In this document: positions 2,747 to 60,711 of the stretch, in pieces
How the letters are laid out: the number at the start of each line of letters is the position of its first letter
How positions within the stretch are numbered: position 1 is the stretch's first letter
Assembly (NCBI RefSeq): GCF_027627475.1
Contig: NZ_CP115484.1
Span: forward strand, 1,611,501-1,675,500
Direction of reading: 5' to 3'
Source: Paenibacillus sp. SYP-B4298
GTDB taxonomy: Bacteria > Bacillota > Bacilli > Paenibacillales > Paenibacillaceae
DNA: 64,000 bases
Notes under the pieces: model-generated
Told to the model about the DNA's origin: nothing
Seen by the model: the letters and a program-made list of their open reading frames with translations, nothing else
The model's database searches: none
Program-made: the position numbers and the translations under genes

Positions 2747-4654
2747 ATGATAGACGCGCCGCAGGCAGGCTTGTCTATGGAAGATTTATATCTTTTTAAT
2801 GAAGGAAGCTTATATCACAGCTATCGCACGCTGGGCGCGCATATCATGGAAGTAGGCGGAGTAAAGGGGGTGCGGTTTGCTGTCTGGGCGCCTAATGCCC
2901 GGTCTGTCTGCGTAGCCGGGAGCTTCAATCAATGGCGCGGCGAGGTCAGCCGCATGGAGCCGATTGGAACAACCGGTGTCTGGTGGGCCTTTATCAAGGG
3001 CACTGGCGAGGGAAGCTTGTACAAGTATGAGATAGAGACGCATGATGGGAAACGGCTGCTCAAGTCCGACCCGTTCGCCTTCCATGCGGAGCGCAGGCCG
3101 GGTACGGCCTCTATTGTTATATCCTTGGCAGGCTATCAATGGAGAGACCATGAGTGGCTTGCCGGGCGGCCGCAGCAAGGGATATATAGCAAGCCGCTCC
3201 TTATCTATGAGGCTCATCTGGGCTCCTGGAAGATCAGAGGGGAGGAGGAGTTCTACACCTACGAGGAGCTGTCGGATGATCTGGTAACGTATGTGAAACA
3301 GATGGGCTATACCCATATCGAGCTGATGCCGATTACGGAGCATCCGTTGGATGCTTCCTGGGGTTATCAGGTGACGGGGTACTTCGCGCCAACGAGCCGG
3401 TATGGCCATCCGATCGGGTTGATGCGATTTATCGACTGTTGCCACCAGCAGGGGATCGGTGTCCTTCTCGATTGGGTGCCTGGCCATTTTTGCAAGGATG
3501 ATCATGGATTAAGAGAGTTCGACGGGACGCCGATCTATGAGGGGACGGATTGGAAGCGGGCGGAGAAGCCGCTGTGGGGGACGCTGGCTTTCGATTTCGG
3601 CCGGGCCGAGGTACAGAGCTTCCTGCTGTCGAGCGCCATGTACTGGATGGAGCTGTTTCATTTTGATGGACTGCGGGTCGATGCGGTGGCCAGTATGCTT
3701 GACTTGCACTTTGACAAGCCGCCTTCGATGTTCACGCTGAACAAGCAGGGTGGAAGAGATCATCTGGAGGCTATCGCTTTTTTGCAAAAGCTCAATGAGG
3801 TTGTCTTTCACTATTATCCGGACGCCCTGATGGTCGCAGAGGATTCCTCCTCCAGGCCAGGGGTGAGCGCTCCTACCTATACGGGCGGATTGGGCTTTAA
3901 TTTCAAGTGGAATATGGGCTGGATGAACGATATGCTGCGCTATATGGCGCTTGCACCCGAGGATCGCTGTCATCATCACGAACTCATTACGTTTTCTCTG
4001 CTGTATGCGTATAATGAAAATTTCGTACTGCCGCTCTCGCATGACGAGGTGGTGCACGGCAAAAGATCGTTGTTGAACAAAATGCCCGGCAGCTATGAGG
4101 ATAAATTTGCCCAGTTGCGGCTGTTCTTCGGCTACTGGATGACCCATCCCGGCAAAAAGCTGCTGTTCATGGGCGGCGAATGGGGACAGTTTGATGAGTG
4201 GAAGGATCGGGAGCAGCTTGATTGGATGGTGCTCGATTACAAGCTGCATCGCAGCTTGCATGGCTACACCCAGTCGCTGAACCACTTCTACCGCTCTGAG
4301 CAGGCATTATGGGAGCTGGACTGCGACCCGTCGGGCTTTGAGTGGATCGATGTGCACAATGCGGGGCAGAGCGTGGTTGCTTATGTACGGCGTGCGCGCA
4401 ATGCCCGGGAATACGTACTGGTGGTATGCAACTTCTCCGCCCGGATGATCGGGGAGTACCGGCTGGGTGTGCCGGAGGCAGCCAGCTACCGGATCGTGTT
4501 TCACAGTGATGAGAGTGGATTGGATTCGGTGTATAACGGAGCTTGCTACACTGCTGTTAATACAGGCTGGCATGGCCGTGAATATAGCATTTCTCTGCAG
4601 CTTCCGCCGTTTTGTTTTGTTGTCTTAAAGCCGCAGGCACAATCGGAGGAATAA
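2747..4654 (+). CDS. glgB: 1,4-alpha-glucan branching enzyme GlgB
   Basis: Makes alpha-1,6 branches in glycogen by transferring short alpha-1,4 chains. The 635-residue product has an N-terminal CBM48 domain (FAVWAPNARSVCVAGSFNQW), then a GH13 barrel with the conserved blocks DWVPGHF, GLRVDAVASML (nucleophile Asp), VAEDSS (acid/base Glu) and LPLSHDEVVHGK. The start is the ATG ten bases after AAGGAGG; a GTG 42 bases upstream is open but lacks this site. First gene of a glgB-glgC-glgD-glgA run, the usual bacillar order. Confidence 0.95.
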   Translation: MIDAPQAGLSMEDLYLFNEGSLYHSYRTLGAHIMEVGGVKGVRFAVWAPNARSVCVAGSFNQWRGEVSRMEPIGTTGVWWAFIKGTGEGSLYKYEIETHDGKRLLKSDPFAFHAERRPGTASIVISLAGYQWRDHEWLAGRPQQGIYSKPLLIYEAHLGSWKIRGEEEFYTYEELSDDLVTYVKQMGYTHIELMPITEHPLDASWGYQVTGYFAPTSRYGHPIGLMRFIDCCHQQGIGVLLDWVPGHFCKDDHGLREFDGTPIYEGTDWKRAEKPLWGTLAFDFGRAEVQSFLLSSAMYWMELFHFDGLRVDAVASMLDLHFDKPPSMFTLNKQGGRDHLEAIAFLQKLNEVVFHYYPDALMVAEDSSSRPGVSAPTYTGGLGFNFKWNMGWMNDMLRYMALAPEDRCHHHELITFSLLYAYNENFVLPLSHDEVVHGKRSLLNKMPGSYEDKFAQLRLFFGYWMTHPGKKLLFMGGEWGQFDEWKDREQLDWMVLDYKLHRSLHGYTQSLNHFYRSEQALWELDCDPSGFEWIDVHNAGQSVVAYVRRARNAREYVLVVCNFSARMIGEYRLGVPEAASYRIVFHSDESGLDSVYNGACYTAVNTGWHGREYSISLQLPPFCFVVLKPQAQSEE

Positions 4655-54890: not shown

Positions 54891-56315
54891 ATGACGATTG
54901 AAGTAGATATGGCCGTATTGGGCGGCGGGCCAGGAGGATACACGGCTGCCATTCGGGCGTCACAGCTTGGGAAGAAGGTGGCGATCATTGAAATGGGCAA
55001 GCTTGGAGGCACCTGCCTCCACCGTGGCTGTATACCAAGCAAGGCACTGCTGCGCAGCGCGGAGGTGTACCACACGGTAAAGGAAGCGGATCAGTATGGC
55101 GTGAGCACAAGTGAGGTGGTGCTTCGATACGAGACGGTGCAGCAGCGGAAGCGGCAGACCGTAGACGGGCTGTATTCAGGCTTGCAGTACCTGATGCGCA
55201 AGCATGGGATCGAGGTTGTTCAGGGTAAGGGGAGAATTATCGGCCCCTCCATCTTCTCTCCGCGAAGCGGCGCGGTAGCGGTAGAGCTGGAGAATGGAGA
55301 GATGGAGACGGTAGTGTCTACAAATCTGATCATTGCTACGGGCTCAAGAACGCGTCATCTACCTGGCCTGGAACCGGATGGGCGTGCGATTCTGTCCAGT
55401 GACGAGGCACTGGAGCTGGAGGAGCTTCCGGGGACGATGCTGATTGTTGGCGGAGGAGTTATTGGAGTGGAGTGGGCCTCCATGATGAATGATTTCGGCG
55501 TCGAGGTGACGATGGTCGAAGCGGCAGCTCGCCTTCTGCCAGGGGAGGACGCGGATATTTCTACTGAACTGGAGCGATTGCTGCGCAAGCGCGGTGTGCG
55601 CATCTTGACGGGTGTCAAGCTCGACGCCTCGTCCCGACAATATACCGAAGAAGGCAAATTGTCCATTAGTGCGGATACTTCAGATGGCCCGGTATTGCTG
55701 GAGGCGGACAAGCTGCTCGTGTCTGTAGGCAGAGAAGCAAATGCCGACCAGATCGGTCTTGAAAACACCGATGTGCAGCTTAACGGAGGATTTATCAAGG
55801 TGAACGCCATGCTGCAAACGACGGAACCGCATATTTATGCGATCGGTGATGTCATCGGCGGCCTTCAGTTGGCACATGTGGCAGCTCATGAAGGGATTAT
55901 TGCGGCTGAGCACGCCTGTGGCCTGAAGCCTGCGGCGTTCTCTGCGACGCTGGTGCCACGTTGCGTCTATTCCCGGCCTGAGATCGCGTCTGTCGGCTGG
56001 ACGGAGCATGAAGCGCGCCAGCAAGGACGAAACGTGCGTATCGGTAAAATTCCGTTCTCTGCACTCGGCAAAGCGAGGGTGCTTGGCGAGCAGGAAGGCT
56101 TTGTGAAGGTAATTGCCGATAGCCAGACGAAGGATGTGCTGGGGGTACATATGATTGGACCGCATGCAACGGATCTCATCGCGGAGGCTGCGCTTGCCAA
56201 GGTGCTTGAGGCAACGCCGTGGGAGATTGGACAGACCATTCATCCGCATCCGACCTTGTCGGAGGCGCTTAGTGAAGCCGCCTTGGCGGTAGATGGAGAA
56301 TCATTTGTCATCTAG
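54891..56315 (+). CDS. lpdV: Dihydrolipoyl dehydrogenase (E3)
   Basis: FAD enzyme that reoxidises dihydrolipoamide in the branched-chain 2-oxoacid dehydrogenase complex. The 474-residue protein has an FAD-binding start (VLGGGPGGYTAAIRASQLG), the redox disulfide in GGTCLHRGCIPSKALL, the NAD-binding GGGVIGVEWASMM and the C-terminal His-Glu pair (HPHPTLSEAL). ATG after TTGGAGG. It precedes the bkd genes but has its own candidate promoter, and a FapR-like site separates it from bkdAA. Confidence 0.95.
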   Translation: MTIEVDMAVLGGGPGGYTAAIRASQLGKKVAIIEMGKLGGTCLHRGCIPSKALLRSAEVYHTVKEADQYGVSTSEVVLRYETVQQRKRQTVDGLYSGLQYLMRKHGIEVVQGKGRIIGPSIFSPRSGAVAVELENGEMETVVSTNLIIATGSRTRHLPGLEPDGRAILSSDEALELEELPGTMLIVGGGVIGVEWASMMNDFGVEVTMVEAAARLLPGEDADISTELERLLRKRGVRILTGVKLDASSRQYTEEGKLSISADTSDGPVLLEADKLLVSVGREANADQIGLENTDVQLNGGFIKVNAMLQTTEPHIYAIGDVIGGLQLAHVAAHEGIIAAEHACGLKPAAFSATLVPRCVYSRPEIASVGWTEHEARQQGRNVRIGKIPFSALGKARVLGEQEGFVKVIADSQTKDVLGVHMIGPHATDLIAEAALAKVLEATPWEIGQTIHPHPTLSEALSEAALAVDGESFVI

Positions 56316-56366
56316 GAGCCGTTTGCTGTCCGCAGGGGTGCTGTTTCTTTTTTCACGGAAACACGT

Positions 56367-56404
56367 TATAATTGGTTTAACCAAGTCTTAGTACCAGGTT
56401 ATAA
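56367..56404 (+). promoter_or_regulatory. bkdAA promoter with FapR-like operator
   Basis: A -10 TATAAT lies at 56367-56372 (weak -35). Starting about nine bases past the expected start site is TTAGTACCAGGTTATAA (56388-56404), which agrees at 15 of 17 positions with the perfect palindrome TTAGTACCAGGTACTAA characteristic of FapR sites. A repressor bound there would block early elongation. Confidence 0.6.
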
Positions 56405-56469
56405 CACCTGTATTTGGGACAAATCTTGAAGCACGGCTGTGCTTCACTAATCGGTTAGGAGGCTGCTCC

Positions 56470-57501
56470 ATGACATATTCCGGATCGGTAGGCCAAACCT
56501 TCAGGCATCATGAGCTTGGACTTAGCGATGAGCAGGTTATAGAGATGTATACGATGATGCAGACAGCAAGGGCATTTGACGAGCGCTGTATGCTGCTTCA
56601 GCGAGCTGGCAAAATCAACTTTCACGTATCGGGTATCGGACAAGAGGCGACGCAGGTGGCTGCCGCCTTCGCTCTCGATCGTGCCCAGGATTATTTCCTG
56701 CCCTATTACCGTGACTACGGGTTCGTGTTGTCCGTAGGTATGACGCTGCGGGAATTAATGCTATCTGTATTTGCCAAGGCGGAGGATCCCAATAGCGGTG
56801 GTCGCCAGATGCCAGGTCATTTTGGCAGCAAGCGGCTGCGTATTGTTACGGGCTCCAGCCCGGTGACGACACAGGTTCCGCATGCCGTTGGTTTCGCACT
56901 TGCTGCGAAGATGAAGAAACAATCCTTTGTGTCCTTCGTGACATTCGGGGATGGATCGAGCAACCAGGGCGATTTTCATGAAGGGTGCAACTTCGCTGGT
57001 GTACACAAGCTGCCGGTAATTTTTATGTGTGAGAACAACCGATATGCGATCTCTACCCCATTCAGCCAGCAGAGCGCCGGCAAGATCAGCGATCGTGCTC
57101 TTGGTTATGGATTTCCAGGCGTAGAGGTTGACGGTAACGATGTGCTGGAGGTATATCGTGTCGTTAAGGAAGCGCGCGAACGGGCAGTTAATGGCGAAGG
57201 GCCGACCTTGATTGATGCGCTGACGTATCGCTTGTCGCCGCACTCCACCTCTGATAACGATCTGGCATACCGGACGAAGGAGGAGGTTGACACGTACCGG
57301 GGACGGGATGGTCTACCGCATTTCAAGCAATACCTGATGGATTGCGGCATCTGGAGCGAGGAGCAGGATGAGGGGCTGCGCAAGCTGCTTCGTGAACAAC
57401 TGGATGATGCGACAAGCTATGGCGACAAGGCGCCATTCCCGGCTCCTGAGGATACGCTGCGCCATGTATATGCCGACTCGGATGGTGAAAGGGGACTTTA
57501 A
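56470..57501 (+). CDS. bkdAA: Branched-chain 2-oxoacid dehydrogenase E1 alpha
   Basis: Decarboxylates 2-oxoisovalerate and related acids. The 343-residue protein has the thiamine-diphosphate motif GDGSSNQGDFHEGCNFAGVH ending near CENNRYAIS, and RQMPGHFGSKRL. Products become branched acyl-CoA primers for fatty acid synthesis. ATG after TTAGGAGG. Next to bkdAB (3-base gap). Confidence 0.95.
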   Translation: MTYSGSVGQTFRHHELGLSDEQVIEMYTMMQTARAFDERCMLLQRAGKINFHVSGIGQEATQVAAAFALDRAQDYFLPYYRDYGFVLSVGMTLRELMLSVFAKAEDPNSGGRQMPGHFGSKRLRIVTGSSPVTTQVPHAVGFALAAKMKKQSFVSFVTFGDGSSNQGDFHEGCNFAGVHKLPVIFMCENNRYAISTPFSQQSAGKISDRALGYGFPGVEVDGNDVLEVYRVVKEARERAVNGEGPTLIDALTYRLSPHSTSDNDLAYRTKEEVDTYRGRDGLPHFKQYLMDCGIWSEEQDEGLRKLLREQLDDATSYGDKAPFPAPEDTLRHVYADSDGERGL

Positions 57502-57504
57502 GCG

Positions 57505-58491
57505 ATGGCTGTCATGGAATATATTGATGCAATCCGGCTGGCGATGAAGGAAGAGATGGAGCGGGATGGGGATGTATTTGTGCTAGGGGAGGACGTAGGT
57601 CGCAAAGGTGGCGTCTTCACCACGACCAAGGGGCTGATGGAGCAGTTCGGAGAGCAGCGGGTGCTGGATACGCCGCTTGCGGAATCGGCGATCGCCGGTG
57701 TAGCGATCGGCGCTGCAATGTACGGCATGAAGCCCATTGCCGAGATGCAGTATTCGGATTTTATGTTCCCTGCTACCAACCAGATCATTAGCGAGGCGGC
57801 CAAAATCCGTTATCGCTCCAACAACGACTGGTCCTGTCCGCTAGTGATTCGCGCTCCGATCGGCGGCGGCATCTTCGGCGGCCTCTATCACTCTCAGTGC
57901 ACCGAATCGGTCTTCTTTGGCACTCCCGGCTTGAAGATCGTTGCACCGTATTCAGCTTACGACGCCAAGGGGCTGCTGAAGGCTGCTGTTCGCGATCCTG
58001 ACCCGGTTCTGTTCTTCGAGCATAAGAAATGCTACAAGCTCGTTACCGGCGAGGTGCCCGAGGATGACTATATTGTACCGATCGGCAAGGCTAATGTGCT
58101 GCGTGAGGGTGAAGACATTACGGTAATCGGCTACAGCCTGCCGCTGCATTATGTGATGGAGGCGGCAGCGGAGCTGGAGCAGGAGGAAGGCATCCGGGCT
58201 CATGTGCTCGATCTGCGCACGCTGCAGCCGCTGGATACGGATGCGATTCGCGAGGCAGTGCGCAAGACAGGCAAGGTGTTGATTGTACATGAGGATAACA
58301 AGACGGGTGGCATCGGCGCGGAGGTAGCGGCGATTATAGCTGAAGAGCTGCTCTATGAGCTGGATGCGCCGATTGCGAGGCTGTGCGGTCCGGATGTGCC
58401 GGCTATGCCGATCAACCCGCCTAGCGAGAAGTTTTTTATGTTGAACAAGGCAAAGGCAAAAGAGGCCATGCGCAATTTGGCTTTGTATTAA
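57505..58491 (+). CDS. bkdAB: Branched-chain 2-oxoacid dehydrogenase E1 beta
   Basis: Partner of E1 alpha. The 328-residue protein starts AVMEYIDAIRLAMKEEMERD and has VLGEDVGRKGGVF, TPLAESAIAGVAIGAAM and FPATNQIISEAAKIR segments plus the C-terminal transketolase domain (LDLRTLQPLDTDAI). It lies three bases after bkdAA. A 171-base gap follows before E2. Confidence 0.95.
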   Translation: MAVMEYIDAIRLAMKEEMERDGDVFVLGEDVGRKGGVFTTTKGLMEQFGEQRVLDTPLAESAIAGVAIGAAMYGMKPIAEMQYSDFMFPATNQIISEAAKIRYRSNNDWSCPLVIRAPIGGGIFGGLYHSQCTESVFFGTPGLKIVAPYSAYDAKGLLKAAVRDPDPVLFFEHKKCYKLVTGEVPEDDYIVPIGKANVLREGEDITVIGYSLPLHYVMEAAAELEQEEGIRAHVLDLRTLQPLDTDAIREAVRKTGKVLIVHEDNKTGGIGAEVAAIIAEELLYELDAPIARLCGPDVPAMPINPPSEKFFMLNKAKAKEAMRNLALY

Positions 58492-58662: not shown

Positions 58663-59970
58663 TTGAGTAAAATCGTTGAAATTATTATGCCGCAATTGGC
58701 GGAGTCGCTCGTCTCGGCAACTATTAATCGGTGGTTGAAGCAGCCTGGCGATCAGGTGGACATGTATGAGCCGATCTGTGATTTGCTGACGGATAAGGTG
58801 AACGCCGAGCTTCCATCTACCGTCTCCGGGACGCTCGTCAAAATATTGGTCGGCAATGGAGAAAAGGTGGATGTGGGAACACCCATCTGTCTAATTGAAT
58901 CGACGAACGCGGATGCTGGCTCGGACACGGCCGGGAATGGTCAACAAGACAGTGGTGCGGAGCAAGCTAGTGTCAGTGAAGCTGCTTCATCTGAGGATCG
59001 CAGCATGCGGGGAAGATTCTCTCCGGCTGTGCAGCAGCTCGCTGCGGAGCATCGGATTGATCTGAATCAGGTGGAGGGCACCGGACTTGGGGGGCGAATC
59101 ACCCGCAAGGATGTGCTCGCTTATGTAGCCTCGGGCAAAAAAGACGCAGGTTTAGCACAGCAGACACCTTCAACGGGACCTGATCCGAGACTTGCCGTGC
59201 GCACAAGTGGCCTTCACCTGGCGGAGACGCCCAAAATTCCGCATATCGAGATTGAGCATTCTATACCGGGGCGGGGCGAATATTTCATCGATGTGACGCC
59301 GATGCGCAATAGTATTGCGCGTAATATGCGCCAAAGTGTGTCAGAGATTCCTCACGCGTGGACGATGATTGAGGTGGACGTCACGAATATTGTCGTGCTG
59401 CGCAACAAGCTGAAGGAGGAGTTCCTGAAGCGTGAAGGAGTCAACCTGACCTATCTGGCCTTTTTGATGAAGGCTGTCGTGAATGCAATCAAGGATTTCC
59501 CGATTATGAATTCGGTCTGGGCGGTCGATAAAATTATCGTCAAGCGCGACATCAATATCTCGCTGGCCGTTGGTACTGAGGATTCTGTGCTTACCCCAGT
59601 CATCAAAAACGCCGACCAGAAAAATATTGCCGGCCTCGCGCGGGAAATTGATGAGCTGGCACGTAAAACGAGAGAAGGCAAGCTGACGCTGAGCGACATG
59701 CAGGGAGGCACCTTTACCGTCAACAATACCGGCTCCTTTGGTTCCATTCTGTCTTATCCGATCATTAATTATCCGCAGGCAGCGATTGTAACGTTTGAGT
59801 CGATTGTGAAGCGTCCGGTCGTTATTGATGATATGATCGCGGTGCGTTCGATGGCTAATATTTGTCTCTCGCTGGATCATCGCATTTTGGATGGAGTCAT
59901 CTGCGGCCGTTTCCTCCAGCGTGTGAAGGATAATCTGGAGAGCTATAATTCGGAGACGAAGCTGTACTAG
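58663..59970 (+). CDS. bkdB: Branched-chain 2-oxoacid dehydrogenase E2
   Basis: Dihydrolipoamide acyltransferase core of the complex. The 435-residue protein has a lipoyl domain (DLLTDKVNAELPS, lipoylated Lys near 43), a peripheral-subunit-binding domain (FSPAVQQLAAEHRIDLNQVE with TGLGGRITRKDVLAY) and a catalytic domain with the DHRILDGVICG motif. Linkers are rich in Ser/Ala/Gly. TTG start after AGGGGATGAAGGG. Stop TAG is followed directly by the lipB region. Confidence 0.95.
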   Translation: MSKIVEIIMPQLAESLVSATINRWLKQPGDQVDMYEPICDLLTDKVNAELPSTVSGTLVKILVGNGEKVDVGTPICLIESTNADAGSDTAGNGQQDSGAEQASVSEAASSEDRSMRGRFSPAVQQLAAEHRIDLNQVEGTGLGGRITRKDVLAYVASGKKDAGLAQQTPSTGPDPRLAVRTSGLHLAETPKIPHIEIEHSIPGRGEYFIDVTPMRNSIARNMRQSVSEIPHAWTMIEVDVTNIVVLRNKLKEEFLKREGVNLTYLAFLMKAVVNAIKDFPIMNSVWAVDKIIVKRDINISLAVGTEDSVLTPVIKNADQKNIAGLAREIDELARKTREGKLTLSDMQGGTFTVNNTGSFGSILSYPIINYPQAAIVTFESIVKRPVVIDDMIAVRSMANICLSLDHRILDGVICGRFLQRVKDNLESYNSETKLY

Positions 59971-60006
59971 ATGCGCGGTAATCAACACGAAGGGCGGGAG
60001 AATGAG

Positions 60007-60711
60007 GTGGATAGCGAACGGGCGCTCGATGCGCGATATATGGCAACGGTCGATTATGGCGAGGCCTGGGAGCTACAAAAGGCGATGGTCAAGGAGATTG
60101 ATAACGGGCAGCGCAAGGAGACGCTGCTGCTGCTGGAGCACCCGCCGACGTATACGATTGGCTCGCAGCAGCATCCCGAGCATCTGCTCTTAAGCGAGGA
60201 GGAGCTGAAGCGGCAGGGCATCGCTCTGTATAAAATCGACAGAGGCGGCGATATTACATATCATGGTCCCGGTCAGCTCGTTGGTTACCCCTTGCTGTAC
60301 CTTGATGCTGCAGGTCTTGACCTGCACGGCTACCTGCGCACACTGGAGCAGGTGCTGATTGACTGGCTGGGCGGCTATGGTGTGCAGGGCGGGCGCAAGC
60401 CAGAATATACCGGCGTATGGGTAGGAGATCAGAAGATCGCCGCCATCGGCATCAAATTCAACAAGTGCCGTCATCGCCGCGGCTTTGTGGCAAGCCATGG
60501 GTTTGCGTTAAACCTGAAAGCCGGGATCGCCGCAGAGGGCTTCCGCGGCATCGTCCCTTGCGGTATACAGACCTATGGAGTGACCTCGTTCGCAGATTTG
60601 ACAGGTCAGCCTATGCCGCTGGAGCAGGCGGCTGCGGAGCTGCTGCCCCACTTTTGCCGCCATTTTGGATTTGAGCCAGCGGAGCTTGTCCACACCGTAC
60701 ATCGGACATAA
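60007..60711 (+). CDS. lipB: Octanoyltransferase LipB
   Basis: Transfers octanoyl groups from acyl carrier protein to lipoyl domains, so it serves the E2 encoded just upstream. The 234-residue product has the family blocks LLLEHPPTYTIGSQ, RGGDITYHGPGQLVGYPLL, KIAAIGIKFNKCRHRRGFVASHG and the catalytic Cys in GIVPCGI. The start is probably GTG 60007, about eight bases after GGGAGAA; ATG 59971, right at the bkdB stop, is an in-frame alternative (246 residues) without a good site. Confidence 0.9.
   Translation: MDSERALDARYMATVDYGEAWELQKAMVKEIDNGQRKETLLLLEHPPTYTIGSQQHPEHLLLSEEELKRQGIALYKIDRGGDITYHGPGQLVGYPLLYLDAAGLDLHGYLRTLEQVLIDWLGGYGVQGGRKPEYTGVWVGDQKIAAIGIKFNKCRHRRGFVASHGFALNLKAGIAAEGFRGIVPCGIQTYGVTSFADLTGQPMPLEQAAAELLPHFCRHFGFEPAELVHTVHRT

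Follow-up and report, generated by a model that had tools for sequence, protein, structure and literature searches.

The right part of the window, by which we mean the whole stretch of DNA analysed here (64,000 nucleotides of Paenibacillus sp. SYP-B4298), carries recN, spoIVB, spo0A, lpd, bkdAA, bkdAB, bkdB, lipB and recA as well as a peptidase-T-like gene, all of them on the plus strand. The lpd gene ends at position 56315 and bkdAA starts at 56470. The 154-bp gap between them holds, in this order, a TATAAT box, the predicted FapR operator TTAGTACCAGGTTATAA, an AGGAGG motif and the ATG of bkdAA. The features of this region are as follows:

54891-56315, plus strand: lpd, E3 (dihydrolipoyl dehydrogenase), upstream of the operator
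56344-56351, plus strand: T-rich tract TTTCTTTT at -35 distance, a poor match to a -35 element (sequence)
56367-56372, plus strand: TATAAT, -10 box of the presumed bkdAA promoter, 15 nt before the operator
56388-56404, plus strand: predicted FapR-type operator TTAGTACCAGGTTATAA (sequence match)
56457-56462, plus strand: AGGAGG, ribosome-binding site of bkdAA (sequence)
56470-57501, plus strand: bkdAA, putative E1 alpha of a branched-chain 2-oxo acid dehydrogenase
57505-58491, plus strand: bkdAB, E1 beta
58663-59970, plus strand: bkdB, E2 with lipoyl, E3-binding and catalytic domains
59971-60711, plus strand: lipB, lipoyl(octanoyl) transferase, abutting the bkdB stop

The genes for E1 alpha, E1 beta, E2 and E3 adjoin one another, which is the gene content of a 2-oxo acid dehydrogenase operon. 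Since lpd lies upstream of the operator, it is not under the operator. No promoter or terminator was listed in the 171-bp gap between bkdAB and bkdB, and the transcription unit behind the operator appears to comprise bkdAA, bkdAB and bkdB and probably also lipB. E1 alpha is closer to 1um9 (274 bits) and human BCKDH (235) than to bacterial PDH (223), and it stays under the cut-off of the PDH E1 alpha model (334.5 vs 411.35). Models named for PDH fit E1 beta better: it exceeds the cut-off of an NCBIfam subfamily model that bears the name of pyruvate dehydrogenase (333.1 vs 321), and its top relative of solved structure carries a pyruvate dehydrogenase label. E2 (bkdB) remained under every cut-off among the models applied. 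A second E1-type gene, 43% identical, is located elsewhere in the genome; loci representing this second gene (L023-L026, 41-43% identical) were excluded from all counts. The likeness of E1 alpha, the gene order and the presence of the second E1-type gene together suggest a complex for branched-chain substrates and not one specific to pyruvate, with the E1 beta matches as evidence to the contrary.

The sequence-only reading had placed a FapR-like site just past a TATAAT box and had counted 15 of 17 positions in agreement with a perfect palindrome. This description was borne out, with the site at 56388-56404 and a spacing of 15 nt: the operator shows two mismatches to TTAGTACCWGGTACTAA, both of which are deviations from the palindrome in the right half-site. 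It is a 17-bp inverted repeat of the TTAGTACC type, as is characteristic of FapR operators. In the whole 64-kb window, TTAGTACCAGGTTATAA is the sole match to TTAGTACCWGGTACTAA at up to three mismatches, and dinucleotide-shuffled windows contained on average 0.02 matches at the same threshold. A scoring matrix built from 31 FapR-type sites, with bkd sites excluded from training, gave the operator a score of 23.0 (maximum 28.6), and the runner-up position in the 64-kb window scored 10.1. We also asked whether the palindrome TTGGTTTAACCAA (56372-56384) forms a second operator and rejected this, as it is not preserved among relatives.

Both the regulator and further sites, which the sequence-only reading had proposed to look for in the full genome, are present. 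The 6.26-Mb one-contig genome encodes a single FapR-family match, scoring 268.5 bits against a cut-off of 183. This protein is similar to FapR proteins of solved structure, which we take to be those of B. subtilis and S. aureus. In an alignment with S. aureus FapR it is identical at all eight positions checked, namely Lys10, Arg13, Gln41, Arg56, Arg110, Gly111, Asn119 and Leu132. According to the available parts of the structural description, Lys10, Arg13, Gln41 and Arg56 contact DNA in S. aureus FapR, Arg110, Gly111 and Asn119 contact malonyl-CoA, and Leu132 was used to block the ligand tunnel (PMC3536700). The conservation of these residues suggests that the protein can read the motif and take up malonyl-CoA.

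Scanning the 6.26 Mb with TTAGTACCWGGTNNTAA and allowing one mismatch yields seven rows, which fall at five places: upstream of fabH, of fabI and of fapR-plsX-fabH, in the gap that separates fabF from a divergent regulator gene, and upstream of bkdAA. The pattern read backwards gave no match in the genome at the same threshold. The site at the fapR promoter, TTAGTACCAGGTGATAA (L009 3527-3543), shares the asymmetry of the bkdAA site and is likewise off the palindrome at two positions. The presence of the motif at the promoter of fapR itself is in line with a FapR operator. Five weaker genome matches whose surroundings were inspected (L011-L015), out of a larger number that includes ten other places with three mismatches, all fall within reading frames of at least 208 aa and were discarded.

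Within L010 2598-3610 (G000:C1 6108597-6109609), the site between fabF and the divergent gene overlaps a promoter (TTACAA, 17 nt, TATAAT) at its TATAAT. This promoter points away from fabF and toward the gene for a 284-aa regulator, which contains an MmyB-like ligand-binding domain (PF17765, 147 bits). FapR may control this regulator, fabF or both.

We found that the site is kept upstream of bkdAA far beyond this strain. Within the genus, it precedes the bkdAA orthologue at up to one mismatch in 7/7 genomes. In a larger set of relatives, mostly Paenibacillus (the best 80 of 564 found), 79 carry the site within 350 bp upstream of bkdAA at up to two mismatches, 54 of them exactly, 22 with one mismatch and 3 with two, and the backwards pattern at up to two mismatches is found upstream of bkdAA in none of the 80. 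In P. tepidiphilus (L105), an exact copy lies 414 bp upstream of bkdAA, which brings the total to 80/80 among the best 80 of 564, with one displaced; conservation in relatives, another check named by the sequence-only reading, could thus be confirmed. In this locus, repeated sequence at about 3570-4000 separates the operator from bkdAA. With the bkd-free matrix, the top match of the entire fetched locus was this site in 80/80 relatives. Loci available for part of the 148 and 149 genomes searched gave a similar result: 58/58 oriented loci carry the site with two mismatches at most, and in other families of the order it precedes bkdAA in 36/40 loci; these two sets overlap with the 80 relatives and are not independent. 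The motif is similarly general at fapR promoters in the order (27/27 at up to three mismatches, 26/27 at up to two).

In an anchored profile of the 74 loci in plus orientation, 11 of the 17 columns of the site show no variation, an invariance that is partly built in, the sites having been chosen by likeness to the pattern. Columns flanking the site mostly remain below 0.5 bit, exceptions being the T-rich tract, the -10 region and the bases that immediately precede the site. Every relative with a strong site belongs to one order, which would fit a functionless chance match retained by common ancestry. We consider this explanation extremely unlikely, as the core is kept despite diverged flanks, the distance between operator and bkdAA varies from 19 to 171 bp among relatives (414 in L105), 5/80 relatives hold the operator in the opposite orientation, and only 0.02 matches are expected in the window.

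Directly before the operator, at 56382-56387, lies a CAAGTC/CAAGTA element that is largely kept at bkdAA of the relatives (L027-L106) and is missing at the fapR operator of the same genome. This element may coincide with the start point or provide a second contact. The bkdAA leader also contains a perfect 8-bp hairpin at 56427-56446, TGAAGCAC-GGCT-GTGCTTCA, with no T run behind it, which was not seen in the nearest relative, L027.

The TATAAT box has a weak -35 hexamer (TTTCTT, 17-nt spacing) and is not among the calls of a simple promoter scan, both of which speak against a strong promoter. Its position relative to the operator is well kept: 78/80 relatives, as opposed to 0/80 control windows, have an exact TATAAT no more than 35 bp before the operator, and the spacing between the two is 15-19 nt in 73 of the 78 relatives having TATAAT. 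With a distance of 15 nt after the TATAAT, the operator lies within or just downstream of the presumed promoter, as is typical of FapR operators. No convincing terminator was found between lpd and bkdAA, and the fold of the gap is ordinary (z -0.44). For this reason, FapR might act mainly as a roadblock to read-through from lpd and not as a repressor at a bkdAA promoter of its own. This alternative, which could also operate alongside promoter repression, has to be taken seriously, and the position of the operator downstream of the presumed start point fits such a role. However, the TATAAT box that accompanies the operator in nearly all relatives and in none of the control windows argues for a promoter of its own, and we regard the roadblock as the main function as rather unlikely compared with repression at the bkdAA promoter. 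A sigma-54 promoter of the B. subtilis bkd type, with its -12/-24 consensus, was sought in the lpd-bkdAA gap and not found, and it was rejected for the gap only; in the window, the sigma-54 consensus at up to one mismatch has 4 matches versus 6.8 expected.

The distribution of fapR in the order bears on the identity of the protein that binds. A fapR gene is present in 145/149 genomes and missing in G149, G154, G157 and G171, which belong to four families; these are small drafts of 40-240 contigs, in which a missing fapR may be an assembly gap. No site with three or fewer mismatches was found in these four genomes over the approximately 6 kb upstream of bkdAA (3.5 kb in G171). In the same comparison, 36/38 fapR-bearing genomes have the site versus 0/4 of those lacking fapR, and the chance that all four fall among the six site-less genomes is about 1 in 7,500 (hypergeometric, kinship ignored). 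G161 has fapR and a degenerate site with three mismatches. In G151 (L280), fapR is present and no site with fewer than four mismatches was found in the 6 kb upstream of bkdAA; the fapR promoter of this genome does hold the motif, which makes it the one clear exception. Likeness of a motif alone does not prove which protein binds, and a different regulator with a near-identical operator might in principle use the site. This is very unlikely in view of the single FapR-family match in the genome, the occurrence of the motif at the fapR promoter and at lipid genes, and the four fapR-less genomes without the site.

The arrangement resembles the B. subtilis fap regulon as described in the available parts of two reports, in which one malonyl-CoA-sensing repressor acts on fatty acid and phospholipid synthesis genes through a 17-bp inverted repeat in or just downstream of the promoter (PMC5052256, PMC4525379). 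Unlike here, where bkd carries a FapR-type site, bkd lies outside the fap regulon in B. subtilis and is described, in the part of the report available, as SigL- and BkdR-dependent (PMC4525379), with CodY and TnrA as additional regulators according to the accessible part of another (PMC2743287). Such layered control could mean that FapR binds with a slight effect on bkd while another regulator, e.g. CodY, dominates. This seems distinctly unlikely to us, since the site is near-invariant across the order amid diverged flanks, which points to steady selection. The situation also differs from S. aureus NCTC 8325, where the lpd (bkd) operon was judged in silico to be an unlikely FapR target in the part of the study available (PMC6099573). 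For FapR of Exiguobacterium antarcticum B7, the available parts of the description name no bkd target. As a malonyl-CoA sensor for lipid synthesis FapR is a textbook case, and the regulon lists consulted start at FabH. We found no earlier report of FapR control of bkd in the open-access literature searched by title and start of abstract; RegPrecise was outside this search, and an earlier prediction may exist.

These observations point to a mechanism in which FapR dimers would bind the operator just 3' of the -10 box of the bkdAA promoter. If transcription starts some 7 nt downstream of the -10 box, bound FapR would extend from about +9 to about +25 and, while malonyl-CoA is low, keep RNA polymerase from initiating or from passing. 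A rise in malonyl-CoA would lead to its binding by FapR and to the release of FapR from the DNA, upon which bkdAA, bkdAB, bkdB and probably lipB would be expressed alongside the genes for FabH, FabI, PlsX and probably FabF. In such a circuit, one feed-forward signal would set both the supply of branched acyl-CoA primers and chain elongation, since the same malonyl-CoA signal would act on the bkd and the fab genes, and this would be general in the order. We infer the individual steps, i.e. binding, repression, the response to malonyl-CoA, the extent of the operon and the substrate specificity, and the coupling of bkd to malonyl-CoA in particular would follow from the identity of FapR and its conserved ligand residues.

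Overall, we put the probability at about 0.86 that FapR represses bkdAA-bkdAB-bkdB, and probably lipB, at low malonyl-CoA and that branched primer supply is part of the FapR regulon across the order. On the strength of the sequence comparisons, bkdAA appears to be a new and well-supported target of a known regulator, order-wide and not confined to one strain.

Membrane fatty acids in Paenibacillus are mainly branched, and the primer must therefore come from the branched-chain dehydrogenase. With bkd under FapR, a single signal would govern primer supply as well as chain initiation, elongation and the entry into phospholipids, and the matching of primer and malonyl-CoA in such cells becomes directly testable. 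We predict that fatty acid synthesis inhibitors induce bkd through FapR in Paenibacillus. The locus would also represent a clear case of the same operon under different regulators in related lineages.

Outside the order, the picture is more varied. In 39 loci of other Bacilli, each of at least 600 bases, no site at up to two mismatches was found in the last 600 bp before bkdAA (0/39). In a second order (that of G279), a FapR match is present in 14/14 genomes, 13 of them over the cut-off, and the fapR promoter holds the motif at up to two mismatches in 13/14 and at three in 1/14. The run of genes leading to bkdAA is headed in this order by lpd or by a gene of 362-410 aa, which, judging by its length and start, is presumably bcd. 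Among the 11 operons with enough sequence, for which the starts of the first genes were chosen by hand, 7 have the top matrix match of the entire locus no more than 240 bp upstream of their first gene, and in these 7 no other part of the respective locus scores as high; in the other 4/11 nothing was found at the operon head. The seven scores (22.6, 13.7, 11.5, 10.2, 5.3, 4.3 and 4.3, the last two being one site in two relatives) are mostly weaker than those of the first order. Stray matrix matches reach up to 17.4 bits within 9 kb in other loci at class level, so that position, not strength, supports all of the second-order sites but the first.

These data suggest, short of proof, that the control of bkd by FapR predates the order. 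A broader possibility, which we put forward tentatively and at somewhat less than even odds, is that a FapR-run branched primer supply is an old wiring common to both orders, exerted at the head of a bcd-lpd-bkd operon in the second order and at an internal promoter behind lpd in the first. In these lineages the complex would then be a lipid-synthesis enzyme with its level set by malonyl-CoA and not, as described for B. subtilis, by amino-acid supply, and malonyl-CoA would help to set membrane branching and fluidity.

Some matches outside the order lie far from any bkdAA promoter. Two loci (L230 and L261) show matches with two and three mismatches about 1.8 kb before bkdAA, within a frame of 363-375 aa that immediately precedes the lpd frame, and these were taken as chance. 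The backwards pattern itself sometimes reaches two mismatches in long stretches (L237, L284), and a match at two mismatches far from a promoter therefore means little. A further match from outside the order, TTAATACCAAGTAGTAA in G306 (L241 2650-2666; 17.4 bits), is located 6.3 kb before bkdAA, where a 365-aa frame ends and a 371-aa frame begins 51 bp further on.
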